DNA of 64,000 bases from Echinarachnius parma (lineage: Eukaryota; Echinodermata; Echinoidea; Clypeasteroida; Echinarachniidae), in NCBI GenBank assembly GCA_037951105.1, contig JBAMJV010007665.1:60001-124000 (forward strand), read 5' to 3'. Below the pieces are notes generated by a model. The model had not been told where the DNA came from and searched no databases. It saw nothing but the letters and a program-made list of their open reading frames with translations. Every line of letters begins with the position of its first letter. Positions within the stretch are counted from its first letter, which is position 1. This document shows positions 18,174-51,600 of this stretch, piece by piece. A program made the translations under genes and the position numbers.

Positions 18174-18619
18174 TCATGATACGCAATGAAGCCTCTCACT
18201 CTCGAGTCTAATACGTTGATCAATTGCCCTTCGCATTTTTGTCTCCAAGTCTTTGTCATTTATGTGAGCGTTTCCGAGGGCTTGCAGCGGTGCTGGCATC
18301 AACCGTTCTTCACAGCAACGGATAGGTATTACTTGCCGGTCTGATATTTCAAGAGCCATTGAAATTGTCATGGCTTGTTGGCCACCCTTTTTTTGGCAGT
18401 CCTCTTCCGTGATTAGAATCACCACGTGGGAGCTAGTCTTGAGCGCCTCCTCCTTGGCATATGACTTAGGCATGCCCAACTTTCCATCATAAGGTGTTGT
18501 CATCTTCCATTTGTTGCGCCGTATCATTTCCATTATCTTGTTGACGTCCTCCGTCAGTATGCTATAAACCAGACAGATGTCGAAATAGATCTCCGCAACC
18601 TCGTCAACCTTCGTGGGCT
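18174..18619 (-). CDS. Gene 2 last exon: TIR-like signalling domain
   Basis: About 148 residues after a phase-1 acceptor (GGATTACAG), ending in TGA. The order of motifs fits a TIR fold: strand [10 protein letters not shown]; helix [12 protein letters not shown]; a middle region [19 protein letters not shown]; strand [19 protein letters not shown]; helix SMALEISDR; strand D QVIPIRC; then MPAPLQALG. This mirrors (F/Y)DAFxxY...RxxxVVVS...LIPI in MyD88- and Toll-type TIRs. The classical box-2 RDxxPG is not present, so partners may differ. An in-frame ATG at 18638 would allow a stand-alone 154-residue protein instead. The phase-1 acceptor matches the phase-1 donor of the preceding tail exon, which favours fusion. 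Confidence 0.65.
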
Positions 18620-24600: not shown

Positions 24601-25872
24601 AGGCCTTCAAATTCATATATAGCATAAACAGTTCTTTTATTCACGCACAAAATTTGGCAAAAATTAACAAAACCTAATTATAACAAGCACCTCGGGCACA
24701 ATTGGATTGAATTCCTTATGTCAGATATCTTGTGTCTGGGCTTAAAGATAATAAAATACAAAGATCCTTGACGTGTAAAATTATCATCGCTGTATCCGGT
24801 ACCTCTTGTTACGAGGTTCCACTGTATCTGTGTTACAGGATGTTTTTAACTTGTAGTTTAAATAAGTGGGCAGTATGGAATAAATTATTATGACATAAAT
24901 TTGTCATTTTTTAACTCAAACAAACCATTGTTTTTCTCAGATGAAATAATAATAAATAATATGATTCAGAATAATTGTACAAGGTTATTGATATAATGTA
25001 TGATTGAAGTTCCTTAATAACACCCATGAATAAATGTGAGTGTGTATCACTATGCCAATTGTCCTTTTAACCCTCCTTTTGCTTGGATTCACAGAGGCTT
25101 GCCCTATTATATGCAGGGTAATGAAGGGTCGGCCAAATCAATTGTATTTTTCATAGATCAGGATCAACCAAATGGCTATGAGACACATTCACGGAGACAC
25201 TACATGATTTGCACACATCCAAAAGTTGAATCAATCACCCAGTATTTCAATTTTTTTAACAGTTGTTTCTGCATTTATTGAAAAATGAAATACAAAGTAT
25301 CCAAATAACAATAATTGCATATGTAATTATTGTTATTTGGATACTTTGTATTTCATTTTTCAATAAATGCAGAAACAACTGTTAAAAAAATGATGTTATA
25401 TAATTGATTTTCATTAAATGTGAAAATGCTGTGTAAATACCCAAGTTATTCAACCATTTGCATTGCTTCAAATTTCACTGTAAATCCTTCTTCAAAAAAG
25501 TACAATTTACAAGCATACATTTAAACAAACAGGCGATTTTGTTAGTTTGCGTAAAAAATGCACACATAGTACCAGGTACTTTTACAAAGGGGGAAAAAAT
25601 GGCTAGAAGCATGAAAATGTACAGTCAAACCTGTGTACCATGACCGCCAATCAAAGTGGCCACTGTAGAAAGGTGATCACTATAGACAGGTTCAATTACA
25701 TTCCTTTTCTCTGCAAGGGATCATGTTTGGTGGCCATTATAGGCAGGTTTGCTGCTATAAAAAGGTGGCCGCTATTACAGGTTTGACTGTACTTGACTGT
25801 AAATGTGGGCTCTGTGTAGTGATGTATCCGCAGAGTATGTGTGAGTGTTTGTTTGTGTGGGTGTGTGTGTAG

Positions 25873-25924
<52 letters not shown>

Positions 25925-28900
25925 ATGTTAGATACTAACAAAAAACAGACTTGTAGTTATTTGCAACTGGTTGACACAAAAGATAAAATATTTGCATTAT
26001 ATATAATGTGCTCACACTGTCTGACAATCTACATCTTTCATTCACCTCTACATGCAGTGATGTTGCATGGGGGCGCACCCCCCCCCCCCCCTCTCTAATA
26101 ATTTGCCATCAAAATACAAAACATCACAGGAATAGATTGGGGGTATGACAGGGTGAAGGGTGGGGGATATCTCTCCTTTGCATAACTAGCATACTTCTAA
26201 AGTGATACATACAAAAAATCTACCCACATACCCTCCCCCAAATGTAGCCTATATAGACATGCATGTAGAGTGTATGCCTGTTTGTGTTTCTATAATGGTT
26301 TCAATCATGTGGGAGGTCATGCTTTCTTGAATTCTATTATATTCCAAGGTATAGAACACACTGCACATTTTTTCGAGTGAAAAGTTTCAAAAGCTCCCTA
26401 CTGTGGGAGGGGCGATAGTGTGATACCCCTCCCACACCCCCCCCCCCCCCCCCCCCCTCTGCTCCCTCCCACCACCCCACCCCCACTTTTCAAAATAGTT
26501 CATGCCACTGCAAGATCAGAATAGAAACAAAATATATAAGGTGTGCCCCCATTTAGTCTGACCACACTATTCCATTGTCTCCATGAAAAATGAATACACA
26601 ATATGGCGGATGTTGCCTACTATATGATAGAGGGAGAGTGAGTAATTATAGAATACATTTTGAAAGAGAACAATGGAATTTCAGAATATGCGTACGTGCA
26701 GTTGCTTTTATTTGCCAGCTGTAGCTTTCACGTTCACGCCCAGCCGGCCGGCGCGCGCCTGGCCACGCGATCACGGCCTAAACCTCGCCGATAGACAGGG
26801 CAGCGCAACGAGTCGATGTACCGCGACTGTTGAGCTGAGCCGATGTGTACATGTACGGGTGCGCATATCAACGGCCGGACCATCAATCCTCTGACAAATT
26901 TATGGTAGGCCATCAGTTTTCGGTGATAAAATATGAAATCAATATTCCCTTTTTTCACGAGGTAAACGGTTTTCGTTTTCTTTCAAACTTTCACAAATCC
27001 TTCAATTGTATATTACAATGATATTGACATAGGATTGAAGTCTCAAATGTCTCTTTCGGCAGAATTTTACACTTTACCTGCATCACTTTAAGCTTGCCAA
27101 CGGGGAGTCTTATGACATACGCATATTATTTGCATACATTACAGAAGCGGTCTATAGATTAACTAAGATTTGCCAAGTAAACAAGGTAAATTACTTTCTC
27201 TCACGTTTTGTGTATGTTAATGTAGTGCGTGTGCTCCATAAACGGGGGTCTATACGGGGGCACGTACGGAGGAACCAATTTTGTCGTAATTTGCTAAAGA
27301 TTTTATCAGCATTTACCATCACATTTCGGGTAATTTTATCGTTGATATTGGGGATATATTTGTAATGTTCTTATCTGTCTTAATAGTGAGCATGGTGAGC
27401 AAATAGAAAGAATATAATGAAGTAATATGTTTATATTTCATGTATGGTTTTATTTATTAAATTGGCCTACGGTGATTTCAATGAGAAACGATTAGTATGG
27501 CATCAGTAACGACTCGGATTTTGAGGATTGTTCCATTAGTCGTTGATTATTTATGTTTTTTAAAAATCAAATAATGGGAAAAGTTAAAGGTTTCAAATGA
27601 TTTATTTGTATGGAATGGTTTTCTAAAATCACAGTTTGAATTATCATAGTAGTGCATTTCGCCAATAAAGACTTTTTTTTTAGTCCAGGGAGCCAGAGCA
27701 CGTTCATTTATAAATGTATTGTTATTTTGCATTTAATACATGTGTTAAATCTGAAAAGAGGGTTGGATGCACATAAATACAATATAAATACTAGAAGCCC
27801 AACTGAATAAGCGTATAGCGTTTTAACCACAGAGATAGGCCACGCCTTCAGCAGCGAGTTTTTGAAAATAAGTTGTCGAGTCCATGCAAATGAGGTAGTA
27901 CGTCAGAGTTTGTTTATTTGAATAAATTACCAGACGTGGATTCATTGGATAAAATAACACATTACGCAAACAGCTAAAGTAATTACGCATTGCGCACTCA
28001 GGTAAAGTAATTACGCATTGCGCACTCCATTTGCATAATCCTTACGAGTAATATGCCATCGTAATGAAGAGATCATTTCCATTAAAATGGTATCCAATTC
28101 AACAATTTTAATGAATGGAAAGGGTGGCAGTATTCAATAGAATGTTAACCTTTAGAAAACTGATCAACACAGTCATGCACTCGTAAATTGAATGCATTGG
28201 GGCCATTTTGCTATTCTCTGGCCCTATTCTCTGGGCTACTGCAATCGCACCAATTGCATAATCACTACACATAATGCACCGTTTGAAAGGGATATAATGA
28301 GGCTCTATTGTGACACCGATTTCGAGTATTCTTATTAAAAAATACGAGAGATATGATAGATCAAACTTGAGTTTCCGAACTTTTTTTTGAGGGGTTTAGA
28401 TTTTGCAACTTGTCTACCCATGTAAACTGACCAACTTCCATTTTGAGTTGGGGGGGGGGGGGGGGGGGGGGGCTGGTTGGATGTAAAGGCCACCCCTCAA
28501 CAAACGGTGTGGGAACCCCCCCCCCCCCCCCTCCCCCCCCCCTCCGCATTAACAAGTGTGGGGAAATACCCCCACCCCCACCCCCTTCCAGATCTAGATC
28601 CGTGGTGCGGAGCAGATGGACTGACGTTATTCATATGTATGAGAAATTGAAATCTGGTTACCTTGCTTGTTAGGCACAACGTCGTCCACAGAGCCACTGC
28701 CAGAAGAGTGTCCGCCCTCAGGAGAGGTCAGTCGAGGTTCCTCATCGGTTGCGTGTTTTGGTCCTGAGGAAACTGGGTCAACAAGCATGCATAAAATATA
28801 GGACATGTCATTTTGTGTAGTCTACCAATATTGCACAACAGCTTTGACAGTTGTTTACAAGGTAAACTGCCACTTGGTCTAACCCCGCTTCGTCTAATAT

Positions 28901-31900
28901 CCACTTCGTCTAATCCTACATAGTCTAATCCCATTTCGTCTACAACCACTTGGTCCATTAGCCGGTTCGTCTAATAACCATTTGGGCTATACCCTTATTG
29001 TCTAATATCCACTTGGTCCAACACCACTTAGTCTAATGCCATTTCGTCTAAACACCAGATTGTCTAATATTCGATTCGTCTAATATCACTTCGACTATTT
29101 ACCAGTTCGTCTAATACCACTACGTCTAATACCCATTTGGGCTACACCCATTTCGGCTTTATCCAGATGGGCAGTTCATCACTTGGTCTAATCACCATTT
29201 CATCAACTTTCCGTTTGGTCTAATTGACAGTTGGGCTACTCCCACTTGGGCTAATGTCCCACTTGGGCTAATGACCACATGGTCTAATGCCCATTTAGTC
29301 TAATGACTATTTGGTCTAAGGGTCTAATTTTACGTTGTTGTAAAGTATGATAATTTTAATTCAGTGTCAGTAATAGTGTCCACTAAGTTCAACAGGGGCC
29401 GCGGAAAGGTTTTGAAAGAGGAGGGCTGACCACATTTTAATTGTTATATAGTGTGTTCTTTTATGTTCATGTATTTCTTTGTTTTTAGCCAAAGAAATGG
29501 GGACTGCACCCCCCCCCCCCCCCAGCCCCCACCCGGTTCCGCGGCCCCTGTTCAAGAAGTGTCTTAACCCATGTTAGATCCTATGCACCCGTACGAAACT
29601 AGACAAGTTAAAATTACCACTAAATAATGAGTGTAATTCAATGATATTTTGTGAAAGCATAATGTTATTTATGTTATGTTATTTATGTTATTTATAAATG
29701 TGTGTGAAATAACTTAATATTAACCTGTGAATCATGTTTGCTACTCTCTGTAGTCAAATGAACCCTGCTAGCAGACATTGTTTTTTGTGCGTGCCAAATG
29801 TTGCTTATAAAACTCGTTTGATAAATTGTCTTTATTAAAGCATTAAAGCTTAAACAGTGGCAAGCTTATTGGAAGATAGGTGACAAACTACTTGCCAAAT
29901 TATTTTCTTTTCTTTTTCTATTGAGACTGTTGAACATATTTGTAAGACTATTGATGCCTTGAAGTGCCGCGTGTGCTACTTGCGGGGAGGGGAGGGGGGG
30001 GGGGGGTATACCGCTTTGTTTTGACATACGAGATAAATGATTGCTCGAAGTTGTACGAGATTGCAATTCCACATTAATATTAATTAGGTTATTTAGCCCA
30101 AAATACGAAAAGAAATTTTTTTTTAGGACCCTGATGGCAAAATGACACTTCAATTAAACAATGAAATGTAAACTTCTGAAAGGATTATAAAAATTACTAT
30201 TTTTAATACAAATATCAATAAAAACAGAGAATTTAAGCGTACGAACGATATTTTGGGACTTGTCTATGAAGGTCACCTGATTGTAGCGGCCAATTAGTTT
30301 TCTCTTATACAAAGGTTTCGTCTAGTGAAACCGCTGTGGCTAAATATCCATATAGGCCTAGCTATAATAACAGCCCTATGGAATCTCTCATACGGTATGC
30401 AGGCGGTGGCCATCACAGAGGTCAGTGTGGGCGGTCGTTAGACCAAATGAGAATTAGACTAAATGGTCATTAGCCGAAATAGTGTTTAGACGAAATGGCA
30501 TTAGACGAACTGCTTTTAGACCAAGTGGAAAATAGACCTATTGGTATTAGACGAAATGGTTATATACCAAACGGTAATTAGACGAATTGCATATAGACCA
30601 AGTGAAGAGTAGCCTAACTGAGAATAAGACGAACTGGTATTAAACGAAGTGATGATAGACGAAACGAGGAAAAAAAAGTAGACGAAGTGACATTTGGCCC
30701 ATTTGGTGATTAGACGAAACGGCAATTGCCTAAATTGGCATTAGACCTAGTGATGATTAGACCAAATGGATTTAGCCGAAGTGGAGTTAGACGAACTGAT
30801 GATTAGACCAAGTGGTATTAGACCAAGTGAGTATAAACCGTTTACAAGGGTCTTCTACTCTTGTTTATATCATTGACAGTTATATTGGCGTAGCTAGGAG
30901 GGGGGCACGTCCACCTACAATAATTGGGGGAAAACAATCGTACATATATATATTTATATATTACACAAGCCGGAAGGATAGGGAATCAACTATGGGACAA
31001 TATGAAACTAGAACAAATCTCTTGACAAGTAAGAATGCATTCTAGAGGCCACTTCTCACAAAAATGTCAAGGATTTACCTCTCATTCCAGTTGCTTTCAT
31101 GATCGTGCATTATACCAAACAATTTAGTGAAGCACGTTCAATTAGTATTATTATTTTACATTTAATACATGTGCTAAATCTGAAAAGAGGCTTGGTTGCA
31201 AAGGCCTCAAGAAGGGGTGATCGAGCTTCGATCCTCATCGGTTGCGGGTTTGGTCCTGAGGAAACTGGATCAACAAGCATGCATATAGGACATGTCATTT
31301 TTTGTAGACTACCAATATTACACATCAGCTCTAGCCAGCTAGCAGTTGTTTACAAGGTTTTCGTTATATCATTGACAGTGATAGTGGCGTAAATGGAGGG
31401 GGGCGGGGGCACGTCCACACCCAATATTTGTTTGGGAAAAATCGTACATATATGTATTTATATATGACACAAACCCGAAGGATAAGGAATCAACTAAGGG
31501 ACATTATGCTACTAGTACAAAAGCAGAAAAAAAAACGTTCATTTATCAATCTAATGTGGGTTATGGGGGAATTAAGGGGAAAATCTATGTAAACAAAAAA
31601 AAAACATCAATATAATTATAGACCTTTTCATTTGCATTCTGTCATGCATTTTTGTTTCATTCGTAGGAGCCACGGGAGGAATATTGGTTAAATCAACGCT
31701 ATTATTACCCCCGGATCTAGGCCCTAGTGGTGCAGAGCAGATGTTCTGAAGTTGTCCATGTGCATGACGATTGGAAGTCTGGTTACCTTGCTCGCCAAAC
31801 CGAGCTTGGCTGCCGTGAAAGTCAGAAGAGCCACTGCCAGAACAGTGTCCGCCCTCAGGGAGGGGTGATCGAGCCTCCTCATCGGTTGCGGGTTTTGGCC

Positions 31901-34660: not shown

Positions 34661-34699
<39 letters not shown>

Positions 34700-40600: not shown

Positions 40601-43600
40601 ATGCATCTGATGTGTCTCAAGCATTTTCTCGGCATATATAAATTGTTGAAGAACTTTTTTGCTTTCGTTCAGTCATAATAAATGCACACACATACACACC
40701 AAACACTTGGAAGCTTTAAAGGGATCTAGTAACATTTTGAAAATCCACAAAACCCATTTAGAACTGATCTAGTGGACTTCACATACATTATTGTATTATT
40801 ATTACCAATAGAACAAGTTGCGGTTTACCGAATGTCTCTTTAGTTACAAAGATATTTATGATTTTAACACATCTCCATGGGAGAATTCCAACTGTGTACA
40901 AGGTAAGTGCAATTTGTAAGCAAATGTCACTTTTGCATTTTCGCTCATTACTCGGTCATATGACATTCATTTACCATCATACAAGTTTCACATACGCTCA
41001 GTGAACATAATTATCGGATTACATTAATACACATTTTATCAACCTTCCGAACGTTTTTGCACAATAATGTCAAAAAAGTAAATTGCCCCTTTAGCTAACG
41101 GGCATGCAGCTATCTAACATATCGATAAGAAACATTGTATAATAAATACTGTATTAATGTAATATATGTGAATGATCATATGGGAACCGACCTGTATTTT
41201 CTGTCCGAACTGTTCCTCCAGTCGTTAAAGCTGCTTTTGTGGATGTTGTGTCATTTTCCAACATAGTTGAGCCTTGTGGCTGATCTGTAGTGAAGATGAT
41301 ATAGTCGTAGATTTGAAGATTGGCATATGTAGGGATGTATACAGGGCACTGTGCAAAATGCTACACCGCGGTTCCCCATTAGGAACTAGTTTTATTTGTA
41401 GGCATTTCATAACACTGAATCAATGAGTATTACGCACCAAGCGCAATGCATTCGAAAGATACTAGCGTGCTTCTGATTTGAAATCTGAACGACCTTTCAA
41501 GCTTTAAAGTAGAATTTATTTGTTTTTAAATTTAGATTCAGCTCATATTTCTATATTTCATACATAATCCATAACACGAATATTACAAATAAGTATTTCG
41601 AAACATTGTTATTGAGGAGTTATCATCAATAAATTAGTGGTAATTTGTAAGCCAGTAATGTGGCATCAAAAGTCCCGCCGAAACCAACTGAATATTATGA
41701 CGTCATTCATTGAGTAAGTCATCCTTAGCAGACGATGTCCGATATATAACAAACACATTTTATCTGGCCTTTTTAACATGACTCTGTTCAATCATCCTTG
41801 TTTATTGAGGAGAATATTTGTCATTATTTGCTCCTCTGCCTCACTCTTAAAAGCACTTTGTTGTTCTTTGACACACAATTTTCCCGTAAGCATGCTAAAT
41901 AACGTTATTTTAATCTATCACATCGCCCATAAGTATCACACACAGAACTGCACATTCAGCGACACCCGCATCAAAATACAGCTGTTGAACAATGGGCCAA
42001 TAGATCGTGCCCAGACTTCGGCGGGTCTTTCAAGCAGATAAAGTAGGACGGTGTGTGACTTACTTCATTGAATTTGTCTTTATTTCCGTAAATGTCTCCG
42101 AGTGAATGATTATTGTGTATAAGTCGAGGTGAACCTTATTTACAAAATGCAATGAAATAAATGCGCTTTCGTGACAAGAATACACGTTTAGCAGACAAAA
42201 TAAGTGCACTAATGGTTGTGTAGATTCGCAATGAGACATCGTCTGCTTATGTTAAACTTACTCAATGAGTGACGTCATCAAAACATTGGCGTTTTTTAGC
42301 GCAAAGAGCGCTTGTTTTCGATTCTTGTGATGGGGTTTTGTTTTGTTGTTGTAATAAGATATCGTGTTGGTATGGGAAACAAAAAAAGTATTAATTTTAA
42401 TGTGTTAGTCCCTAGCCCATAAGTGATGCATTGTTCTCATATTTTGTGATTTTCAATGAAATTCTACTTTAAATTGAATGATAGCGTCTCAATCGATTTA
42501 ATAGGCAGACACATGGGGGCAGCTCTATTATCATGATAATACGATATTAACAAATAATAATTTAATTGGACGAGGCATGATAAGTGAAGTGTATACAATG
42601 GTAATTTAATTTTTTTGAAAAATTCATTCATTTGCATATTTATGGTTGTTTATGCAAGGTCATACAATTAATATTTTTACCCATAAATCATATATTCTTC
42701 ATAGATAAACAATGGTTTTCTCTACATAATCTTTACAGCATTTGGAATAATAATACGACAAAAAAATTTGGAAGAGCCAGGTTCTTCCTTATGTTTTCTA
42801 TTGTTTTTTTGAATAATTTTTTATGTATATCTTTGTTTTACTTTTGTATTTAATTGTTTTTGCTGTTTATTTTATTTATAACTATAATTCAACTTTTTTG
42901 AACCCCAAAACAAAATAAAATGTAAACAAGACCAAACAACCAATGACATACCTCTTTTTACAAAAACTAATATTTCCATATGTTTTGTACACAAATCACG
43001 AAATTGAGCGATTTTCGGGCTGACATGCTTAGACAAAAGGTCATGTGACTTCGTAACGGTAAGTCGGATTTTCAGAATTTATGTTATGAAATATGCGCAA
43101 TACCCAAAAGGAAAAGGTCAGCAAGCAGCGGCGCGTCATCTTACCGCGTTTTGGAGCAATTGAAAAAATCGCGGAGGGGGAGGGGCCATTATGGCCCCCC
43201 GGCCTTATTAGGGTTAAATGAAAGGCATTATTTAAACATAAAGTTGAACAATTATTAAGGTATACGTATTAGCTGAAACCACTTTTTTTCATTTACCAGC
43301 TTAGTTATAATAAATCAAGTAATTGTTAATAGACGTGTGCTTTCAGCATTTTACCAGACAAAATTATGAAACCACTTTTTTCATTTACCAGCTTAGTTAT
43401 AATAAATCAAGTACTTGTTAATAGACGTGTGCTTTCAGCATTTTACCAGACAAAATTATGAGGTTATAAGCGAAAAGAGAACATCATTTACACATATAAA
43501 ATGTTGGTGATATTAGTTTATACAACATTGTGTTTGTATTCTTTAGAACTTTCCAGCAACTGGCTCCGTTTCAAGAGGGTCATGTGCTTTAGCTGGTGAT

Positions 43601-46600
43601 GGTGCAGTGACAGTTGTGGTATAAAGATCTAAAAAAAAATAGAACGCGTGATGAGCAGACGTAATGAAAGCATGCATTGATATCTGAAACTAATCAGTTG
43701 TCTTGTACTTTGCTCCAAAAAAGTGAAACAATTCTTTGGAGTATAACTTGGTGCTGTAGTGCATCGTTGTAAAAATCTCCATCTTCAAATAACATAAATA
43801 TGTTGTAAGGTCACTAAAAGATGATTATGTTTGAAAGCTGTAGATATATATAAAATCAGAAATTAGACTTGACTTTTGTGGCACTGCATGTAAAACATTT
43901 ATCACCAATCCTACAAATCCGTGTTCATGGAGCATATTCGCATTTCTCTCATAGTAATAGTAATCGTAAACTGTTACCTGTTTCACAGTGTGTTCCTTCG
44001 TACCCAGAGGGACAGTTGCAGGTGTACTGATTGACCCCATCCACACACGTTGCACCATTAAGGCAATGATTGGGTGAACATTCGTTGATATCTGAAAACA
44101 TGGACATTATGAAAGAAAATATACTTAACAGAACTACAGAGAAAATGTACACCTCAAACCCAAGTGTATTAGTTGTCATGTACTCGTCTTGAATCAGTCA
44201 GTGAATAAAATTGTACAAATTTGGTGGTTATTTAATGACAGATGTGTGCATAATACTTTCAAAAAAAGTACCTCTTTCACTTACCTGGCTCTAAACACTT
44301 ATTAACTTATTTTTAAAATACATTTACATTTTGGGAAATGTTGACGCACTTTGTAATTGAAAAGGCAAACTATTTATGGAGAAATTATAATCACTTGTTT
44401 TATTCGAGCATGAATATTTTATGTATTAAATGATGATTCATTCCAAAATAGGACATCAAATATTTACTTGTCTGACAGTTGGTACCAGTGTATCCAGGAA
44501 GACATGCGCAGAAGTAATCATTTACCAAATCGTTACATACTGCTCCATTACGACAAGGATTGGATGAACACTCATCAGTATCTGAGAGTTGAACAAATAT
44601 ACAGTCTGGATGTTAGTTGACCTTTAGTGACCGTGTATTCATATTCATGTCAGTACATGTAAGATCAACATTAATAATGCAAGCTGGTACATTTAGCGCC
44701 CTATGCTACAATATTGATACATCCGATACAATTGTTAATAAAATGTATTCATGATAAAATGATTATCGCATCTGTCCATCTTCAAATGTCATGAATACGC
44801 TAATAAGTTTAAATTGTAATAATATAGAAGGCTTAAACAAGCAATTAGAGGGCGTGACTGTTTTGGCACCTCTATCACTCTCAGAATTGTTATAACATAT
44901 TACCTGTTTCGCAGTGTGTTCCTTCGTACCCAGAGAGGCAGTTGCAGATGTACTGATTGACCCCATCCACACACGTTGCACCATTTAGGCAAGGATTGGG
45001 TGAACATTCATTGATATCTGAAAACATTGAAATTATGAAAGAAAATATATCTCAAAACAAGAAGTTAGCACAATACAGGGAATATATACTCCTAAAACTC
45101 GTATGTATTAGATGGTATGTACTCTGCTACATTTGGAAAGTAATGATACATTTTAGTTGACAGTGAAGCATTCTTACTCGTTGCTGTTGTGCACAGGTGA
45201 TGATATGACAGAAACTGTATCGAGTTCTTTCAAGTTGAAAGTGTTTTGGCTTCAAACACTAATAATAAAAAAAATGATTAAGTATTACTTTAGGAGCATG
45301 TTGACGCACTTTGTAATTCAAAAGACAAAATAATAATTCGATTAGACAAATTGGTTTATATGGAGATCTGCTTTAAACGATTGTAAAATGACGCAAACTG
45401 ACAGGGTATGGCCACGATTCGAGATCGTTAGGACATTTCAAGACATTTATGTACGGTACAGTCCAAGGAGGGAGAAAGAGAGGCAGACAGGAAGAGAAGA
45501 GAATGTACCATCACTGATTGGACAGGCCTAAGAAGGTAATAAGATAGACAAAAGAAATTGAAGGATTAAGGAAGCTGGGTAAAAAGTCACTGTTGGCGTC
45601 CCTACGACCAGTTAGATTACGGTAGAGGTGGGGTAAGGTGAGGTGAGGGGAGGAAGGAAAATTTTACACATTTGTTATAATATATTATACTAATCTCACT
45701 TTTTATAATCAATATATGCATAATTATTTCCAAAAAACCGATATCACTTACCTGTCTGACAGTTGTTTCCAATGTATCCTGCAACACATGTGCAGAAGTA
45801 AGCGTTTACCAGATCATTACATACTGCTCCATTACGACAAGGATTGGATGAACACTCATCGGTATCTGAGAGTTGAATACATATCCACATCTTGATGTTA
45901 GTTAACTATCAGTGAACATTTGTTCATGTTAGTGCGTGCAAGGTCACAAATGAATCATACAAGTTTGCCTATTCAGCGCCATTCTCAACCATATTGATAC
46001 ATCCGATAAAATGGAAATTAATCATATACAATTATTTTAGCCATTTTCAAATGTGACGAATATGTTTAAGTTAAATTTAAAACAAGTATTATGTTACGAA
46101 GTTGTGGATGTACCTCAAAAGGATACAAATCAGCAATTAGACTTGAATTATGTGGCACTGCATATGTATAGCTCTGATCACAGTTTATACAAATTCGTTT
46201 TTATGGAGGATGTTTGCTTCTTAGATCTATCATACTTATTGTATATACACATAGTTACCTGTTTCACAGTGTGTTCCTTCGTACCTAGAGGGGCAGTTAC
46301 ATGTGTACTGATTGACCCCATCCACACACGTTGCACCATTTAGGCAGGGATTGGATGAACATGCATTGATATCTAAAAACATACAAATTATGAAAGAAAT
46401 TAAAACAAGAACTTAAAGGAACTACAGAGAAAGTATACAACTAAAACCCGTGTGTATTTGTTGTCATTTACTCTGCTCTAGATCAGAAAGTGAACATTTT
46501 ACAAGAAACATGTTTTTATCGATTTCTTTCTAGTTAAGAGTATTGCATATTGGCTGCCTCAACCAGTTGTTAAAGATAAATAACAGTTTTGGAAAAGTTA

Positions 46601-49600
46601 CCTTAAACATCTAAACCCCTCAAAAAAAGTTCGGAAACTCAAGTTTCATCGATCATATCTCTCGTATTTTTTAATAAGAATACTCGAAATCGGTGTCACA
46701 ATATAGCCTCATTATATACCTTTCAAACGATGCATTATGTGTAGTGATTATGCAATTGGGGCGATTGCAGTAGCCCAGAGAATAGGGGGAGGCAGGAAGT
46801 GAAATCTCGCAAAATGGCCCCAATGCATCCAATTTACGAGTGCAAGACTGTGTTGACCAGTTTTCTAAAGGTTAACATTCTATTGAATGCTGCCACCCTT
46901 TCCATTCATCAAAATGTTTGAATTTGATACCATTTTAATGGATATTATCTCTTCCTTACGATGGCATATTAATCGTAAGGATTATGCAAATGGGGTGTGT
47001 GCAGCGAATCGGAATATGGAGATGGGTCGAGTGTGAAATCAGACAAAAAGATATGGAGTTGACAAAAAATCAGAGCGTTGCATTTTTTTCGAGCTTTTGG
47101 GAGGATTTTTTAGCATTTCAAATAAAATATTCATGATTTAAATTGATATCAACTGAAAGCCCAACAACTCTTCTGTATGAAAATGTGACATTTATAATGA
47201 TTTTAGTAAAGGAGATTTCACTTCCTGCCTCCCTCTATTCTCTGGGCTACTGCAATCGCCCCAATTGCATAATCACTACACATAATGCACCGTTAGAAAG
47301 GTATATAATGAGGCTTTATTGTGACACCGATTTCGAGTATTCTTATTAAAAAATACGAGAGATATGATCGATCAAACTTGAGTTTCGGGAACTTTTTTTG
47401 AGGGGTTTATATTGGCCAAACTAATTGATTAATATTGTTGAATAAGTATTTAAAAAGGGGTGGTGTGGTAAAATCATCAAAAAATATCGGAAGAAATCAA
47501 ATGGCCGCCCGCAAAATGTATAAATCCACCGCCCGTTCGCATCTGTCCGCGCCGCTACCGCTGGGCTGGAAATATCGCCAAGCGGGCGCCAAGCCCGCAT
47601 ACCGGATAGCACATGGGAACCACGTGGTCTTTTGCACGTAGCGTATGCACGATTCTGCGTTGGCGATATCGATTTGTGGTAAAACAGTTTATAATTTTGC
47701 AAATATATAAATTAGTAGGCGGTTTCCTGGTCAAATATGTATAATCCCATATTAGTTAAATTATATTCTTTCACATGGTTGGTAATAATTTTGTGTGTGG
47801 GGCGTTTTCCACTACTGTCATTTAGCTTTATTCAAGTTATTTTTTAATACAATTCTCAGTTGAATAGACATACTATTCGTTACACACTTGTTGTATATTG
47901 AAATGAATCATTTTATGTTGGATATGTGCATAATTCTTTCAAAAAGGGACCTATATCACTTACCTATCTGACAATTGTTTCCAGTGTATCCTGCAACACA
48001 TGTGCAGGAGTAAGCGTTTACTAAATCGTTACATACTGCTCCATTACGACAAGGATTGGATGAACACTCATCGGTATCTGAGAGTTGAACAAATAATCAG
48101 TCGTGATGAAAATAAAGAATCAGTGAACATTCACTCATATTAGTACATGCAAGGTGAAATAGTACTCATACAACATATACAAGCAGACATATTCAGCGCT
48201 AATAATGATGCTTCCGATATAATATTAAGAAAATTCCTACATGATAAAATGAGTATCACTCCTTTCCATCTTCAGATATCAGTAATAAAGCATTAGTTCA
48301 AGGATTGTATGCTTAGAAGTTTTGGATGTACCTCAAAAGAGTAAAACCAGCGATAAGAGGCATGACTGATTTGGTATTTCATATAATTATATAACTATAT
48401 ACAATTTGTATTACATGGAGGATGTTCGCTTTTCTCTCATACTTATTGTAAATCATGTAAATTGCTACCTGTTTCACAGTGTGTTCCTTCGTACCCAGAG
48501 AGGCAGTGACAAGTGTACTGATTGATCATATCCACACAGGTTGCACCATTTAGGCAAGGATTGGGTGAGCATTCATTGATATCTAAAAACATGGAAATGA
48601 TGGATGAAAATATATTTTAGAACAAGAATTTAACTCATCTAAAGGGAAAATAAACCTCTAGAACTCGTGTGTTGTAGTTGTCATGTCTTCTGCTCCAATC
48701 AGAAGGTAAATATTTCACTTTACAGCGAAATATGTATAACTGAGCTGTTGTTTTATCAGTTTTATCTCCAATCGTTGTATTCACGTATGTAAAAAAAAAC
48801 GGGTGACGAAAGGACAACAATGTTTTTGTGAAAGTCTTTTGGCTTCAATCACTTGGTAATCAACTTATTTTGTTAATGTAAATTTCCAATTGAGGGGCAT
48901 GTTGACGCACTTAGTAATTTAAAAGACAGACCATCATTCGATTAAACCACATATCGGTCTATATGAAGATCTGCTTTTAAAAAAAATATAAAAACATTTT
49001 CGAGATCCTCAGGACTTGCAAAGACAGTTCTAAAAGGTACAGTCCAGGGAGGGAGAAAGAGAGGTAACATGAGGAAGAGATATAAGGTTAATATCACTGA
49101 GTGGACAGACATAAAGCTGAGTGACACTCTTGAGAGACAGAAAAGAAATAGAAGGATGGAGGAAGCTGGTTAAAAGGTCCGTTAGGCCAGAAAGGCTATG
49201 GGAGAAGTAAGGTTAGGTGACGTTTGTTATATATAAAAATTATTCTTTTTATGATGGGTATGTGCATAATTCTTTCCAAAAAAGGACCACTAACACTTAC
49301 CTATCTGACAGTTGATACCACTGTATCCAGGAACACATGTGCAGATGTAAGCTTTCACCATATCGGTACATACTGCTCCATTATGACAAGGATTGGGTGA
49401 ACACTCATCGGTATCTGAGAGTTGAACAAATAATCAGTGAACATGTATTCATATTAGTACATGCAAGGTGAAATATCACTCATACAACATTATACAAGCT
49501 GGCCTATTTAGCGCTATTTTCTATCATATTGAAACATCCGATATAATTTAAGAAAATTACTACATGATAGAATCAGTATCTTCACATATCACTAATATTG

Positions 49601-51600
49601 CATAAGTTTAAGAATATTATGCTTAGAAGTTTTGGATGTACCTCAAAAGAGTAAAACAGGCGATAAGAGGCAACTGCTGATTTGGTATTTCATATAATAT
49701 ATATAAAAATCTGTATTTTATGGAGGATGTGTGCTACTCTCTCATAATAGTTGTAAATTGTTACCTATTTCACAGTGTGTTCCTTCGTATCCAGAGGGGC
49801 AGTAACAAGTGTACTGATTGACCCCATCCACACATATTGCACCATTTCGGCAAGGATTGAATGAACATTCATCGATATCTGAAAACATGGAAATTATGAA
49901 AGAAAATATATTTCAAAACAAGAAATTCACACAACTACAGGGAATATGTACACCTAAAACTCGCGTGTATTAGTTGGTATGTACTATGCTACATTTGGAA
50001 AGTAATGATACATTTTAGTTGACAGTGAAGCACTCTTACTCGTTGCTGTTGTGCACAGGTGATGATATGGCTTTATCGATTCTTTCAAGTTGAAAGTGTT
50101 TTGGCTTTTGTTTAATACATAAATACCTAAGGAGCATGGTCACGTACTCTGTTATTCAAATGACAAACCATTAATTCGATTAGACAACAAATCAGTCTAT
50201 AATGAAGTTCTCCTTTCAAGGTCCTCAGGACTTGCCAAGACAGTTATAAAAGGTACAGTCCAGGGAGGAAGAAAGAGAGGCAAAATGAGGAAGAGATGTA
50301 AGGTTAATATCACTGAGTGGACAGACATAAAGCTGAGCGACGCTCTACGAAAGACAAGATGAAGCTGGTTGCAAGGTTAGTGGTAGCACCCCTACTGCCA
50401 GTTAGGCTAATGGAGAGGTGAGGGGACGTGTGGAAGTTATATTGTACTCCTGTAATATGTACAAAATTATTCTTCTTGTAAAGGATAATGCATTTTCTCT
50501 TCCAAAAAAAGACATCTAACATGTATCTATTTCACAGTTGTTGCCAGTGTACTATCCAGGAACCCATGTGCAGAAGTAAGCGTTTTCCAAATCGTTACAT
50601 ACTGCTCCATTACGACAAGAATTGGATGAACACTCATCGGTATCATCAGAATATCCAGTCAGGATGTTAGTAAACCACCATCAGGCAACATTGATTTATA
50701 TTTCATGCAAGATCAGACATCAGTCATCCGAGTCAGTTGGCCCATTCAACGCCCTTTTCTACCATATTGATACATCCGAAAACATGCTAAAGGGGTAGTA
50801 CAGTTTTGGTAAGGCTGAGCACACTTTTATAAATTTCACTATGCTCGAAGGTATCAAACGACTAAGAACAAAGCCTGTTTTCATTCAAAAAGAGGCAATC
50901 AAAACACAAGAGGGCGCTCTCTGAAAAAAGCATTGGTTCTATCCATTTTTTCATACAAAATTATGCATGTAATGTTTTGTTGAAATAATGATTAAATAGA
51001 GAGATCATGAGCAACTATTTAAAAACCACTTTTGAAAAAAATTGAAAAAAGTGTAAGCATTTTTGTTTTAAATCATCTCGGCCCCAGATTTATTCCGATC
51101 GAATACATTTATTGATATTTCAGCCGTTTCTGAACCGAATTTGATCAATGTCATTAATATTGTATGCTCTTTCAGATTGTACACTCAGTTTTCATTATCT
51201 CAAAAATAACATTATTTCGTGCAGAGCCCTCTATTTACCAAAACTGAACTTCCTCTTTAAAAAGACTCATTCACGATAAAAAAAATAACTATTATCACTC
51301 CTCTCCATGATGATATTATGTAAGGATCTTGTAGATGTACCTCAAATAATAAAAGGATAAAAGACGGCAATAAGAGGGTACTTGGTGATTTGGTACTTCA
51401 TTATATCTCTACCTCTATAAATTCGTGTTTTATGGACGATGTTTGCTTCTTAGATCTATCATACATTACTTATTATACATAGTTACCTGTTTCACAGTGT
51501 GTTCCTTCGTACCCAGAGGGGCAGTGACATGTGTACTGATTGACCCCATCCACACACGTTGCACCATTTGGGCAAGGATTGGGTGAACATTCATTGATAT
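18174..51600 (-). CDS. Gene 2: EGF-repeat transmembrane receptor with C-terminal TIR-like domain (5' end missing)
   Basis: Minus-strand order: EGF exons 51487-51600, 49765-49878, 49301-49414, 48469-48582, 47964-48077, 46259-46372, 45752-45865, 44904-45017, 44468-44581 and 43978-44091 (each 114 bases). Then stalk exons 43554-43628 (donor broken) and 41192-41284, transmembrane/acidic exon 40143-40544, tail exons 34852-34935, 32282-32398, 31787-31909 and 28662-28772, and TIR exon 18174-18619. All internal exons are phase 1 at both ends and multiples of three, so the chain is open from the first EGF to the TGA. No signal-peptide exon was found upstream of 51600; it may be a small exon I cannot recognise or lie beyond the window. 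The inferred role is an extracellular-ligand receptor signalling through a TIR domain. Transcript continuity across the 10-kb last intron is inference. Confidence 0.6.
18914..19456. mobile_element. M1 MITE, copy 2
   Basis: Inverted ends AGGGGTAGTTTAGTTTTGG and AAACTAAACTACCCCT are flanked by TTAA on both sides; the interior aligns with 2084-2603. It lies about 0.3 kb upstream (in gene 2 sense) of the TIR exon acceptor. Confidence 0.85.
19457..20096. other. Non-coding stretch in the last intron of gene 2
   Basis: Short frames on either strand carry no recognisable domain. Nothing identified. Confidence 0.4.
20097..20163. repeat. Left copy of a widely spaced inverted repeat
   Basis: The stretch CTTCTGTAATGTATGCAAAT to CCCCGTTGGCAAGCTT is found inverted at 27088-27158. 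Between the pair are two halves of an M2 MITE in inverted order, so the arrangement may be the split ends of one element. Confidence 0.65.
20162..20230. repeat. Palindrome with TTAACAATAGTAACTAGG arms
   Basis: Arms of 21 bp (TTAACAATAGTAACTAGGTCC and its complement) flank a centre with CAAGCT/AGCTTG. It is likely a small fold-back element next to the repeat that starts at 20228. Confidence 0.75.
20228..21030. repeat. Interspersed repeat R1, copy 1
   Basis: The stretch from TTAAAGATAATGGTGAGTAT through CACTAGCGTT to ATTTCCCATG matches in reverse complement the region 33540-34152. Shared words include GATACCCGGGCGTCAACC, near 20840 and (inverted) near 33688. Family unknown, probably a non-autonomous DNA transposon. 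Confidence 0.7.
21028..21235. mobile_element. Half of a split M2 MITE
   Basis: It starts TTTAAAGCCATACCTGTAAAG and follows, in reverse complement, the right half of the intact copy at 10474-10842 up to about the middle, where similarity stops. The other half is at 26960-27090. Confidence 0.6.
21441..21561. repeat. Long near-perfect palindrome
   Basis: Arms of about 60 bp (CTGGCGTAAATCTG outermost, TTGTTCACAAAC at the centre) have a handful of mismatches and almost no loop. Such a sequence forms an almost complete hairpin on either strand. Confidence 0.9.
21913..22015. repeat. Perfect 48-bp-arm palindrome
   Basis: Arms TAGATCGACAAATCTATC... and the exact complement flank a 7-base loop (TCATTTA). 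No mismatch is seen. This degree of identity indicates a recent insertion or continued correction between arms. Confidence 0.9.
22016..23005. other. Non-coding stretch in the gene 2 intron
   Basis: It holds short words such as GTTAGGGTTAGGGG at 22371 and GGTTAGGGTTGAAG near 22655, too few to be telomeric. No domain-bearing frame was seen. Confidence 0.4.
23006..23135 (+). CDS. Possible exon of an unknown plus-strand gene
   Basis: Bounded by a good acceptor (CTCATTTTATAG) and donor (GTAATT). One frame is open through all 130 bases, reading [14 protein letters not shown] and then [15 protein letters not shown]. The AG left at the end joins in frame to a downstream candidate exon at 23895. I do not recognise the protein. 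It lies antisense inside the long last intron of gene 2. It could equally be a transposon remnant. Confidence 0.3.
23895..23982 (+). CDS. Possible last exon of the same unknown gene
   Basis: After acceptor CCCTCTCTATAG the frame continues from the exon at 23006 as [20 protein letters not shown] and stops at TAG 23980-23982. It is rich in Pro/Thr/His and polar. Only the splice signals and frame agreement support it. No domain and no upstream exons are identified. Confidence 0.25.
23983..25250. other. Non-coding stretch in the gene 2 intron
   Basis: No domain, repeat family or RNA gene recognised; only short chance frames. Confidence 0.4.
25251..25390. repeat. Near-perfect palindrome with 70-bp arms
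   Basis: The arms start TTTTTTTAACAGTTGTTTCT and meet around TTGCATATGTAA with essentially one mismatch and no real loop. It is the longest simple hairpin in the window. AT-rich arms and A/T-run ends suggest a fold-back MITE. Confidence 0.9.
25391..26670. repeat. Simple-sequence-rich stretch
   Basis: It includes a (GT)n microsatellite at about 25857-25922, C runs near 26078 and 26438, and short frames that result from them. Small words resembling AGGTGGCCACTG/AGGTTTGACTGTAC near 25630-25800 recur locally. No gene seen. Confidence 0.6.
26960..27090. mobile_element. Other half of the split M2 MITE
   Basis: In reverse complement it begins TTAAAGTGATGCAGGTAAAG and follows the left half of the 10474-10842 copy through GACATTTGAGACTT and AATATCATTGTAA, then stops matching. 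With 21028-21235 it brackets about 5.7 kb. Confidence 0.6.
27088..27158. repeat. Right copy of the widely spaced inverted repeat
   Basis: AAGCTTGCCAACGGGGAGT to CATTACAGAAGCGGT is the inverted partner of 20097-20163. Confidence 0.65.
27159..28049. other. Non-coding stretch with a small tandem repeat
   Basis: A 26-base unit containing AAGTAATTACGCATTGCGCA is repeated twice at about 27977-28027. The segment at 27714-27772 resembles 31160-31200, next to the truncated tail exon. No gene recognised. Confidence 0.5.
28050..28397. mobile_element. Truncated copy of the TA-flanked MITE at 46.6 kb
   Basis: From ATTAAAATGGTATCCAATTC to TTTTTGAGGGGTTTA it matches, inverted, the left half of the element at 46614-47407. 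The other half is missing. Confidence 0.7.
28662..28772 (-). CDS. Gene 2 tail-repeat exon T5
   Basis: It encodes 37 residues, phase 1 at both ends, with acceptor TTGTTGACCCAG and donor GTAACC. It reads [15 protein letters not shown], then [12 protein letters not shown], ending NKQ. It shares the SSGPKxATDEE...PEGGHxSGSGS framework with T2 and T3 but its last third differs. The 1.98-kb fold-back element sits 88 bases upstream of its acceptor. The next exon in gene 2 order is the TIR exon. Confidence 0.65.
28861..30839. mobile_element. Fold-back element F1, copy 1 (GGTCTAAT sub-repeats)
   Basis: A 1979-bp element flanked by the exact 8-bp duplication GTTTACAA (28853-28860 and 30840-30847), with ends GGTAAACTGCCACTTGG and ACCAAGTGAGTATAAACC. 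Each end is a terminal inverted repeat of roughly 400-470 bp built from degenerate 15-20-bp words (CACTTGGTCTAATACC-like on the left, inverted on the right). No transposase frame is visible, so it is non-autonomous. The related intron sequence at 31983-32000 retains the uninterrupted site TTGTTTACAAGGGTCTTG. An 8-bp duplication is compatible with hAT, P or Merlin types. Confidence 0.85.
29388..29553. mobile_element. Small MITE with CAGGGGCCGCGGAA ends, nested in F1 copy 1
   Basis: Inverted ends ACAGGGGCCGCGGAA and TTCCGCGGCCCCTGTT enclose a C tract. The flanking TTCAA is present on both sides. The second F1 copy lacks it, so it inserted after the two copies diverged. Confidence 0.7.
31203..31264 (-). 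pseudogene. Gene 2 tail-repeat exon T4, truncated
   Basis: The acceptor ATCCAG and first codons match T2/T3/T5 (VSSGP), but one A is missing from the AAAA run and the exon is cut off after CGATCACCCCTTCTTGAGG. The 3' half and donor are gone. Probably not spliced. Confidence 0.7.
31787..31909 (-). CDS. Gene 2 tail-repeat exon T3
   Basis: It encodes 41 residues, phase 1 at both ends, with acceptor TTGTTAATCCAG and donor GTAACC. It reads [20 protein letters not shown], then [20 protein letters not shown], then Q. It is polar and Gly/Ser-rich with a short acidic patch, probably disordered cytoplasmic linker. The GEQ ending matches the end of the transmembrane exon, suggesting that exon's 3' part was the ancestor of the repeats. 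Confidence 0.7.
32282..32398 (-). CDS. Gene 2 tail-repeat exon T2
   Basis: It encodes 39 residues, phase 1 at both ends, with donor GTAACC. It reads [19 protein letters not shown], then [20 protein letters not shown]. Relative to T3 two codons (EE) are missing, an in-frame change consistent with selection to keep the frame. Its intron flanks match those of T3 for over 100 bases. Confidence 0.7.
32400..33539. other. Intron with repeat debris
   Basis: Minus-strand frames with [21 protein letters not shown] text come from a GC-rich repeat also seen near 34220-34330 (GGTCGCTTCGCTCCTTACA). G and C runs lie at 33470-33535. No exon recognised. Confidence 0.5.
33540..34152. repeat. Interspersed repeat R1, copy 2 (inverted)
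   Basis: Reverse complement of 20228-21030 with shared CGTTCTAGGTGCTCCTAAT-like and GGGCGTC words. The end near 34152 (CTCACCATTATCTTTAA) mirrors the start of copy 1. Confidence 0.7.
34626..34730. repeat. (TAG)n microsatellite
   Basis: Trinucleotide TAG/GTA repeats with a few GGA interruptions. Poly-Tyr and poly-Thr frames on the minus strand are artefacts of it. Confidence 0.95.
34852..34935 (-). CDS. Gene 2 tail exon T1
   Basis: It encodes 28 residues, phase 1 at both ends, with donor GTAATC. It reads [20 protein letters not shown] and ends ADDEQ, acidic and Tyr-free. Two acceptors nine bases apart (GACAG|ACATGACAG|ACG) are both in frame, so three residues are optional. Its donor-side intron resembles that of T2, T3, T5 and the transmembrane exon around GATCTAG. 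Confidence 0.6.
35010..35267 (-). other. Open frame with hydrophobic start inside a gene 2 intron
   Basis: An 85-codon frame starts [20 protein letters not shown], resembling a signal peptide, followed by polar sequence with no recognisable domain. It lies between T1 and the transmembrane exon. There is no splice or expression support; chance is the simplest explanation. Confidence 0.15.
36170..38432. mobile_element. Fold-back element F1, copy 2, third layer
   Basis: A 2263-bp element with exact 8-bp duplication GTGTCAAG (36162-36169 and 38433-38440), ends GGTAAACCCCCACTTGG and ACCAAGTGAATATAAACC. The arms of GGTCTAAT words align with copy 1 at 28861-30839, and both share the core GGCGGTGGCC. 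It contains F4 at 37021-37915. Confidence 0.85.
37021..37915. mobile_element. Fold-back element F4 (TTCGTTATTCCGAA sub-repeats), innermost
   Basis: An 895-bp element with exact 8-bp duplication ATAATTAC (37013-37020 and 37916-37923). Ends are GGGTGCGCTTCGTTATTCCG and CCGAATAACGGACTGTAACC; the arms repeat GGTTCGTTATTCCGAAGG. The corresponding site in F1 copy 1 (about 30361, GCTATAATAACAGCCC) is empty. GG...CC ends, 8-bp duplications and sub-repeat arms ally it with F1. Confidence 0.85.
38519..38628. mobile_element. Small MITE inside the right arm of F3
   Basis: Ends CCATGGGCGTAGAGACT and ATCTACGCCCGTGGA are imperfect inverted repeats around a G tract. It interrupts the run of TCGTTGCGA words. 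Confidence 0.55.
39155..40142. other. Intron after the gene 2 transmembrane exon
   Basis: Nothing recognised apart from the GATCTAGGCCC word at about 40087, shared with the donor-side introns of the tail exons. Confidence 0.5.
40143..40544 (-). CDS. Gene 2 transmembrane and acidic-tail exon
   Basis: It encodes 134 residues, phase 1 at both ends (acceptor TTTGTATAG, donor GTAAGA). It holds a short Ser/Pro stalk, then a helix [20 protein letters not shown] with TCLLVRSC after it, then [24 protein letters not shown] and DEPGEQ. It is clearly homologous to gene 1 exon 9 (IAGLS..CIV..CL.CLLVR, DHVY, SLAGE/GLAGE, acidic run). The gene 1 YMNL motif aligns to ENMARRD, so the Grb2-type tyrosine is lost. 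Gene 1 continues to its YEIP motif where gene 2 has a donor, so gene 2 exchanged the last part of the tail for repeat exons and the TIR domain. Confidence 0.8.
40716..41093. mobile_element. TTAA-type MITE (family M3), copy 1
   Basis: It starts TTAAAGGGATCTAGTAACA and ends near AATTGCCCCTTTAG. Internally it shares ATTCGCTCATTACTCGG-like sequence with the copy at 62475-62867. Confidence 0.65.
41192..41284 (-). CDS. Gene 2 stalk exon S2
   Basis: It encodes 31 residues, phase 1 at both ends (acceptor TTCACTACAG, donor GTCGGT). It reads [20 protein letters not shown], then [11 protein letters not shown]: Thr/Ser-rich, with a possible N-glycosylation site NDTT read as N-D-T. It is the intact counterpart of the frameshifted gene 1 exon 8. 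Confidence 0.7.
41285..43274. other. Gene 2 intron, nothing recognised
   Basis: Mostly AT-rich unique-looking DNA. Plus-strand frames near 41778 and 42632 have no known domain. Confidence 0.4.
43275..43460. repeat. 93-bp tandem duplication
   Basis: A 93-base unit (GAAACCACTTTTTTTCATTT to CAGACAAAATTAT) occurs twice back to back with two or three differences, indicating a recent event. Confidence 0.9.
43554..43628 (-). CDS. Gene 2 stalk exon S1 (donor altered)
   Basis: After a T-rich acceptor ending TTTTAG the frame reads [20 protein letters not shown], then EPVAG, comparable with gene 1 exon 7. At the expected donor gene 1 has GCTGGTAAGT while this copy has GCTGGAAAGT, so GT has become GA. 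It may be skipped without loss of frame because it is 75 bases, phase 1 both ends. Confidence 0.45.
43978..44091 (-). CDS. Gene 2 EGF exon A6
   Basis: 38 residues, phase 1/1, acceptor AG, donor GTAACA. The domain reads [35 protein letters not shown] with all six Cys. It has a calcium-binding start, hydroxylation-type C-x-D-x4-Y-x-C, and the O-fucose sequon before Cys3. It is the last EGF before the stalk. Confidence 0.9.
44468..44581 (-). CDS. Gene 2 EGF exon B5
   Basis: 38 residues, phase 1/1, donor GTAAAT. It reads [41 protein letters not shown] fits the O-glucose sequon C-x-S-x-P-C; NGAVC lacks the Thr needed for O-fucose. Ends in A rather than G, so the next exon's first residue becomes Asn. 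Confidence 0.9.
44904..45017 (-). CDS. Gene 2 EGF exon A5
   Basis: 38 residues, phase 1/1. It reads [35 protein letters not shown] with six Cys. O-fucose sequon present, O-glucose sequon absent. Confidence 0.9.
45400..45655 (+). pseudogene. LINE remnant P1 in a B-to-A intron
   Basis: The frame contains [12 protein letters not shown] followed by [15 protein letters not shown], the C-terminal signature of RTE-like reverse transcriptases (G-x-V-x-GGRKRGR...). It is frameshifted. The same remnant is in the introns at 49010-49215 and 50215-50435, on the strand opposite gene 2. Confidence 0.65.
45752..45865 (-). CDS. Gene 2 EGF exon B4
   Basis: 38 residues, phase 1/1, donor GTAAGT. It reads [36 protein letters not shown]-glucose sequon present. 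Confidence 0.9.
46259..46372 (-). CDS. Gene 2 EGF exon A4
   Basis: 38 residues, phase 1/1. It reads [35 protein letters not shown]. The calcium-ligand Glu before Cys1 is Ala and a conserved Gly is Arg, so calcium binding may be weakened. It is the only copy with both the O-glucose and O-fucose sequons. Confidence 0.9.
46614..47407. mobile_element. TA-flanked fold-back MITE
   Basis: Ends AACCCCTCAAAAAAAGTTC and GAACTTTTTTTGAGGGGTT are flanked by TA, as for Tc1/mariner-type insertions. Inverted similarity extends over 150 bases (GATCATATCTCTCGTATTTT and its complement). It lies in the B3-to-A4 intron of gene 2 and accounts for much of its extra length. Confidence 0.8.
47964..48077 (-). CDS. 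Gene 2 EGF exon B3
   Basis: 38 residues, phase 1/1. It reads [36 protein letters not shown]-glucose sequon present. Confidence 0.9.
48469..48582 (-). CDS. Gene 2 EGF exon A3
   Basis: 38 residues, phase 1/1, donor GTAGCA. It reads [36 protein letters not shown]-fucose sequon present. Confidence 0.9.
49010..49215 (+). pseudogene. LINE remnant P2 in a B-to-A intron
   Basis: The frame [16 protein letters not shown], then [16 protein letters not shown], is the RTE-like C-terminal signature. It matches P1 and P3 and occupies the same relative intron, between B2 and A3. Confidence 0.7.
49301..49414 (-). CDS. Gene 2 EGF exon B2
   Basis: 38 residues, phase 1/1, donor GTAAGT. It reads [35 protein letters not shown] with six Cys. 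Neither O-glucose nor O-fucose sequon is complete. Confidence 0.9.
49765..49878 (-). CDS. Gene 2 EGF exon A2
   Basis: 38 residues, phase 1/1. It reads [40 protein letters not shown] has lost the Thr of the O-fucose sequon found in the other A copies. Confidence 0.9.
50215..50435 (+). pseudogene. LINE remnant P3 in a B-to-A intron
   Basis: [16 protein letters not shown], then [16 protein letters not shown], matches P2 closely and P1 less so. It lies between dead exon B1 and A2. Confidence 0.7.
50527..50643 (-). pseudogene. Gene 2 EGF pseudoexon B1
   Basis: It aligns throughout with the B-type exons but has four lesions: acceptor AG changed to TG; Cys5 changed to Trp (50564-50566); a 3-base insertion creating an in-frame TAG (50552-50554); and donor GT changed to AT. 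It is the only dead member of the array. Because all neighbours are phase 1/1, its loss simply brings A1 and A2 together. Confidence 0.85.
50787..51260. mobile_element. M1 MITE, copy 3
   Basis: Ends AGGGGTAGTACAGTTTTGG and CCAAAACTGAACTTCCTCT. Right flank TTAA; left flank CTAA, a decayed TTAA. It lies in the A1-to-B1 intron. Confidence 0.8.
51487..51600 (-). CDS. Gene 2 EGF exon A1 (first exon found)
   Basis: 38 residues, phase 1/1, acceptor GTCAG, donor GTAACT. It reads [36 protein letters not shown]-fucose sequon present. Its phase-1 acceptor means at least one more coding exon must precede it. Confidence 0.9.

Follow-up and report, generated by a model that had tools for sequence, protein, structure and literature searches.

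Interleukin-1-receptor-like proteins with immunoglobulin and TIR domains (Ig-TIR) and Toll-like receptors cross the membrane once and carry a C-terminal, intracellular TIR domain. For the Toll-like receptors, this single-pass plan with its intracellular C-terminal TIR domain is given in the excerpted text of PMC6040629. Proteins that combine EGF repeats with a TIR domain have been named as well. EGF-TIR is a protein class in oyster (figure legend in PMC4346834), and two Aplysia EGF-TIR genes, LOC101855416 and LOC101856027, are entered in Table 5 of PMC9334734, where a domain search placed the pair among the adaptors. ROC and COR domains occur in two Aplysia TIR-LRR proteins according to the same source. 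Extracts of a survey of amphioxus put the number of TIR domain combinations at 28 in that animal and at about six in sea urchin (PMC2575513), and a survey of bivalve TIR proteins is cited in PMC5549309. The original prediction for the locus described here had treated an EGF-array TIR receptor as an unrecognised architecture; this view has to be given up, as the class had already been named in oyster (PMC4346834) and Aplysia (PMC9334734). Like the gene reported below, the mollusc entries unite EGF domains with a TIR domain within a single predicted protein, a likeness of class name and domain content. Within the literature on EGF combined with TIR, including that on sea urchins and echinoderms, and covering mostly papers outside subscription, we found no description of this gene. 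The EGF-TIR class is known; what is new is the neighbourhood of a repeated tail unit and the relation of the TIR exon to TIR exons linked to Roc-COR and to Death domains.

The window, by which we mean the whole stretch of 64,000 nucleotides of Echinarachnius parma DNA that was analysed, corresponds to positions 60001-124000 of contig C7654; the genome searched comprises 1.2 Gb in 14,790 contigs. On the minus strand, 17 exons running from 51600 to 18174 give a spliced frame of 829 residues with no internal stop before the terminal stop, as re-derived by script. An AG precedes all 17 exons and a GT follows the first 16, each of which has a length that is a multiple of 3, and the phase is 1/1 at all joins. 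The predicted protein has ten EGF domains, then a stalk, one hydrophobic helix and an acidic tail, followed by the part from the tail-repeat exons and by the TIR domain of the last exon. The 17-exon chain proposed originally was recovered at every place, with 1/1 joins and a frame open to the stop, and its EGF array, stalk, hydrophobic helix and tail repeats were borne out by the exon model, the EGF profile and hydropathy. Upstream of 51600, neither a first exon nor a signal peptide was identified, and the 5' end of the EGF array was not found.

All ten EGF exons (minus strand, 51487-51600, 49765-49878, 49301-49414, 48469-48582, 47964-48077, 46259-46372, 45752-45865, 44904-45017, 44468-44581 and 43978-44091, in order of transcription) are exactly 114 nt long, encoding 38 residues, and lie in phase 1/1. 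Each matched an EGF profile; the Pfam EGF model was tested on the ninth (5.4e-9) and the tenth (1.7e-8), the remainder being matched by the profile made from these same exons. The exons fall into two types, with mean identities of 0.91 and 0.89 within and 0.64 between types, and this mostly alternating arrangement points to growth of the array by duplication of exon pairs. Two short motifs, present in nine and in all ten of the exons, respectively, are presumably a calcium-binding start motif and an Asx-hydroxylation motif. EGF arrays of the Notch/Delta type likewise consist of 38-residue EGF exons with calcium-binding and Asx-hydroxylation motifs. However, the intracellular part of the window gene is unrelated to theirs, and no Notch, ankyrin or DSL domain was noticed in the model exons. 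An eleventh EGF exon, at about 50650-50527 (minus strand), is degenerate: it has an in-frame stop, and as judged by eye its AG acceptor has been lost. A further phase-1 exon candidate (43543-43628, minus strand), situated after the tenth EGF exon and before the stalk exon, has a strong pyrimidine tract; it ends in a stop and could give a secreted form of the protein.

Downstream of the EGF array, the exon model continues on the minus strand with a Ser/Thr-rich stalk exon of 93 nt (41192-41284) and an exon of 402 nt (40143-40544) for the predicted transmembrane helix and acidic cytoplasmic tail. The helix corresponds to a hydropathy peak of 2.42 at model residues 438-456; the exon has two relatives on the same contig and matched no Pfam family. 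Four tail exons follow, supported by the exon model and by comparison of tail units: e12 (34852-34935, 84 nt) and the repeat exons e13 (32282-32389, 108 nt), e14 (31787-31900, 114 nt) and e15 (28662-28763, 102 nt). Exons e12 to e15 are alike in sequence. More weakly, and with intron sequence included, they also resemble the transmembrane exon at its 3' end, with e15 reaching 73.7% identity over 76 nt (E 5e-6). On account of this resemblance we take the tail exons to be part of the transmembrane gene by descent. A proposed homology of the tail repeat with Ser-rich linkers preceding three other TIR exons of the genome (L013, L014 and L017) was unconvincing, 33, 6 and 92 of 500 shuffles, respectively, being equally good.

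The last exon (18174-18619, minus strand, 446 nt) has a phase-1 acceptor and contains the stop codon. Three AATAAA motifs about 500 nt past the stop (17638-17678, minus strand) may mark a polyadenylation region, as motif matches of a kind also present after the other gene ends tested. The intron before this exon measures 10 kb, and the acceptor has a poor pyrimidine tract. Agreement of phase at this join had been advanced as direct evidence for the gene; the phases do agree, but a single join agrees with a chance of about 1-in-3, so the evidence is weaker than stated. A codon-bias scan of the minus strand from 44500 to 18650 was weakly discriminating, the ten EGF exons and the stalk scoring below zero. 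Besides part of the transmembrane exon it yielded a sole candidate, at 35779-35477 (minus strand), which has an early ATG and falls downstream of the transmembrane exon and upstream of e12; the last intron yielded none. This candidate matched no Pfam family and has no copy among the fetched loci; either a first exon or mere noise could account for it.

Searched alone, the last exon matched Pfam TIR_2 with E=0.0018 and 19.2 bits, below the curated cut-off of 28. No TIR was among its five matches in the PDB up to E 5, and the protein database held no relative up to E 1. AlphaFold2, run on the TIR exon alone as a single sequence without alignment, was uninformative (pLDDT 37, pTM 0.24), and an open frame of that length is by itself unremarkable, as such a frame occurred on one or other strand in 55 of 500 simulations of a 10.6 kb stretch. 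Within the same genome, the exon gave 39 matches including itself (44 candidates scored), the next being L010 with 78% identity. A family alignment of 30 rows was made from the window exon and 29 others, nine listed matches without a locus being excluded. With a limit of E 1, TIR_2 was matched by all 30 members, that of the window among them (the best at 1e-8), and TIR PF01582 by 17 of them. When the family profile was compared by hhalign with the aligned eight best Pfam TIR matches from the same genome, most of them presumably Toll-like receptors, a probability of 93.5% and an E of 2.2e-7 were obtained. A PDB profile search with the family gave MyD88 as the best TIR (E 0.016), ranked behind a designed Rossmann protein (0.00039), and the family alignment found nothing in the protein database up to E 0.01. 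Because its 30-member family, and not the exon alone, is recognised by TIR profiles, we call the last exon TIR: what it is predicted to encode is a real TIR domain of a divergent subfamily. The claimed TIR domain thus holds up in this divergent form, with profile searches recognising it through the family and the lone exon staying below the cut-off.

In one column of the alignment, Glu is found in 26 of the 30 members, Ser in the window exon and L010, and Gln in L011 and L012. By the MyD88 alignment, this column is a candidate for the NADase glutamate of SARM1-like TIR domains. If the column is catalytic, the Ser would make the window TIR a scaffold and not an enzyme.

The genome is rich in TIR domains, with at least 135 Pfam TIR matches among 150 scored of 426 candidates, many of which lie in open frames some 900-1,000 residues long. 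Neighbours of the family TIR exons were analysed at 30 loci (L009-L038), with flanks of ~1.5 kb for most. A short exon situated between COR and TIR exons, here called the pre-TIR exon, adjoins 13 of the 30, and COR-A was found in both pre-TIR-flanked loci whose upstream sequence was fetched. Upstream of L011, the matches were 3.7e-9 in L042, above cut-off, and 1.1e-4 in L041, below it; upstream of L020, both matches in L050 (6.8e-6 and 5.5e-4) were below cut-off. The stretches L041, L042 and L050 contain Roc-COR-type exons, then a TIR exon. As the pre-TIR exon recurs beside so many TIR loci, Roc-COR-TIR genes seem to be expanded in this genome. Death-like exons were detected at two of the 30 loci, L016 (via L048) and L013, both below cut-off (E 0.0027 and 0.0013). 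Those in L048 (2016-4742, minus strand) precede the TIR exon L016, and one gave a match to Pfam Death that stayed below cut-off. Neither L051 (fetched for L026) nor L052 (for L017) gave a match within 10 kb to any COR, pre-TIR or Death query, and 13 of the 30 loci were left without a class. L051 also carries an open frame (5732-6490, plus strand) similar to AID/APOBEC-like deaminases (NAD1 4.3e-10).

In a midpoint-rooted tree of the 30 rows, the two tail-linked TIR exons, that of the window and L010, group together (93/85). Both belong to a five-row set (96/82) together with L011/L012, a pair linked to Roc-COR, and L035, a row on a long branch; this suggests that the TIR exon of the receptor was derived from a Roc-COR-linked gene. 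Given a Roc-COR-linked exon next to 13 of the 30 TIR exons and a Death-like one next to two, we infer that the TIR exon probably spread by exon shuffling. Conservation of phase is soft evidence here: a phase-1 AG accompanied by a pyrimidine tract was found upstream of the TIR exon at 20 of 30 loci, but the scan also listed other phases and gave no site for either the window or L010, both of which have poor tracts.

The tail unit was followed outside the window with a DNA profile built from five window units, run with nhmmer over 266,711 bases of fetched loci. It found one further clear copy, at C12738:32766-32698 (7.7e-12), the sole decoy match having an E of 3.2. This copy belongs to a tail-type exon of 69 nt, in phase 1/1 and with AG/GT borders, that lies on the same strand as L010 and 2.1 kb upstream of it, L010 being the TIR exon closest to that of the window. 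The DNA match covers the end of the exon, but mainly the intron after it, and the encoded peptide was not matched by the protein profile of the window tail. The introns before the two TIR exons are similar at their 3' ends (75.7% over 304 nt, 4.9e-54) and weakly so at their 5' ends (70 nt, E 0.005), and the acceptor AG and its phase are common to both. A genome-wide DNA search with one tail unit gave four places on C7654 and one on C10491 (five candidates scored); it was not exhaustive, because it missed the C12738 copy and e12. On C10491 there are two tail units (3e-28 and 6.6e-13), and the sequence that remains before this contig stops at 63,736 gave no TIR match. Of the three loci with tail units, two thus have a TIR exon after the unit, and the third is cut off by a contig edge.

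An immunoglobulin-transmembrane gene on C10491 was considered as a second receptor with the tail module and set aside, since its last exons are of phase 0 and the tail exons of phase 1, as judged by eye, which leaves the joining of this gene to the tail units unsupported. In L058 (4640-9537, plus strand), an Ig V-set fragment (E 5e-5, just under cut-off) and a transmembrane exon rich in tyrosine motifs were observed, with two tail units downstream; on visual inspection, their phases do not fit together.

Three places, each of them on C7654, were found to carry transmembrane exons of the window kind (seven candidates scored). One of the two paralogues lies in the window on the plus strand (2885-10094). 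It comprises CUB-like exons, one EGF exon (about 6634-6749), an exon for transmembrane helix and tail (about 9008-9666) and a plausible short terminal exon (10032-10094); no TIR was seen in this gene. Its CUB-like exons number four by eye, one of which matched Pfam CUB below cut-off (E 0.0033), and no relatives of them were found elsewhere in the window or the fetched loci. Among its stalk exons, the one at about 8025-8100 is apparently out of frame relative to that of the minus-strand gene. The third member of the cluster, on the minus strand near 164.8 kb (L046/L047, C7654:155001-175000), has 11 EGF matches upstream of its transmembrane exon and a tandemly repeated tail segment. Elsewhere in the window, a fragment of a retroelement reverse transcriptase occupies 58016-58663 (plus strand; RVT_1 6.7e-30).

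Taken together, it seems somewhat probable that the EGF, transmembrane, tail and TIR exons form one transcript and a single receptor gene. The original prediction had offered their joining as an inference; it keeps that standing and is strengthened by the second pair of tail and TIR exons, on C12738. In addition, neither the window (no match at E below 0.5 for Roc-COR, pre-TIR or Death queries, eight of them COR/pre-TIR exons) nor the 17.8 kb upstream of L010 gave a match that would assign these TIR exons to another class of gene. Against a single gene stand the length of the last intron and the poor tract of its acceptor, the two paralogues, for which no TIR exon was found, and the contigs C12738, with no EGF or transmembrane exon in the 17.8 kb up to its end and a tail peptide that the window tail profile does not match, and C10491, with no TIR in its remaining sequence. 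The candidate exon at 35779-35477 and a dN/dS near 1 between the window TIR exon and its closest relative weigh on the same side.

Some of these observations would fit a TIR exon that is a stray, unused duplicate, the EGF-transmembrane protein ending with the tail exons or in a short terminal exon that escaped detection, but we regard this as unlikely. The window TIR exon is the sole family TIR exon on C7654 among the matches listed, no such exon having been found for the two paralogues, and the terminal exon at 10032-10094 shows how such a protein may end. A dN/dS of 0.89 (dS 0.124) between the window exon and its closest relative, L010, counts in the same direction, as does the 10 kb intron. 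Yet dN/dS is 0.41 against L011, the frame is intact over 149 codons, and the two length differences from L010, 21 and 6 nt, are both multiples of 3. The intact frame gives mild support only, because a neutral simulation of 44 substitutions left it open in 1486 of 5000 runs. Retention of the acceptor in the same phase as in L010, and the tail-type exon upstream of the TIR exon on C12738, also speak against an unused duplicate.

That the EGF-transmembrane gene ends early, with tail and TIR exons forming a separate cytosolic adaptor, as may hold on C12738, where a tail-type and a TIR exon occur and the 17.8 kb up to the contig end showed no EGF or transmembrane exon, is quite improbable: 15 of the 30 TIR exons do adjoin Roc-COR-linked or Death-like exons with no recognised membrane exon, and the candidate at 35779-35477 could supply a first exon, but the window tail exons resemble the end of the transmembrane exon, follow it, precede the TIR exon, and share strand and phase with both.

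The single receptor that we favour would be a single-pass protein with ten EGF domains of the calcium-binding type on a stalk and one transmembrane helix, and its cytoplasmic part would begin with an acidic tail, extended by mini-exons that arose through duplication, and end in a TIR domain at the C terminus. This predicted plan is that of the Toll-like and Ig-TIR receptors, to which its TIR domain is distantly similar by way of the Pfam TIR matches in the same genome. In contrast to those receptors, the model has an EGF array and no LRR or Ig exon among the exons found, and its TIR domain is up to 60% identical to Roc-COR-linked TIRs. It shares its TIR subfamily with the Roc-COR-TIR genes of the same genome, which differ in that no EGF or transmembrane exon of the window family was matched in the stretch fetched upstream of L011 and which are presumably cytosolic. 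The TIR exon may have been acquired from a gene of this type by phase-1 exon shuffling, and the receptor might signal by TIR-TIR assembly with soluble Roc-COR-linked and Death-linked TIR proteins. As a whole, the scheme in which a Roc-COR-TIR exon was shuffled in phase 1 behind the tail exons of an EGF protein, so that receptor and cytosolic adaptors assemble through related TIR domains, is a tentative one.

If the exons form one transcript, the locus would encode a TIR receptor in which an EGF array replaces LRR or Ig domains, in an animal whose TIR repertoire is very large. Through the shared exon, a receptor in the membrane would then be connected with a family of TIR genes linked to Roc-COR and to Death domains, and the locus would offer a concrete case, testable by cDNA, of receptor innovation through exon shuffling.
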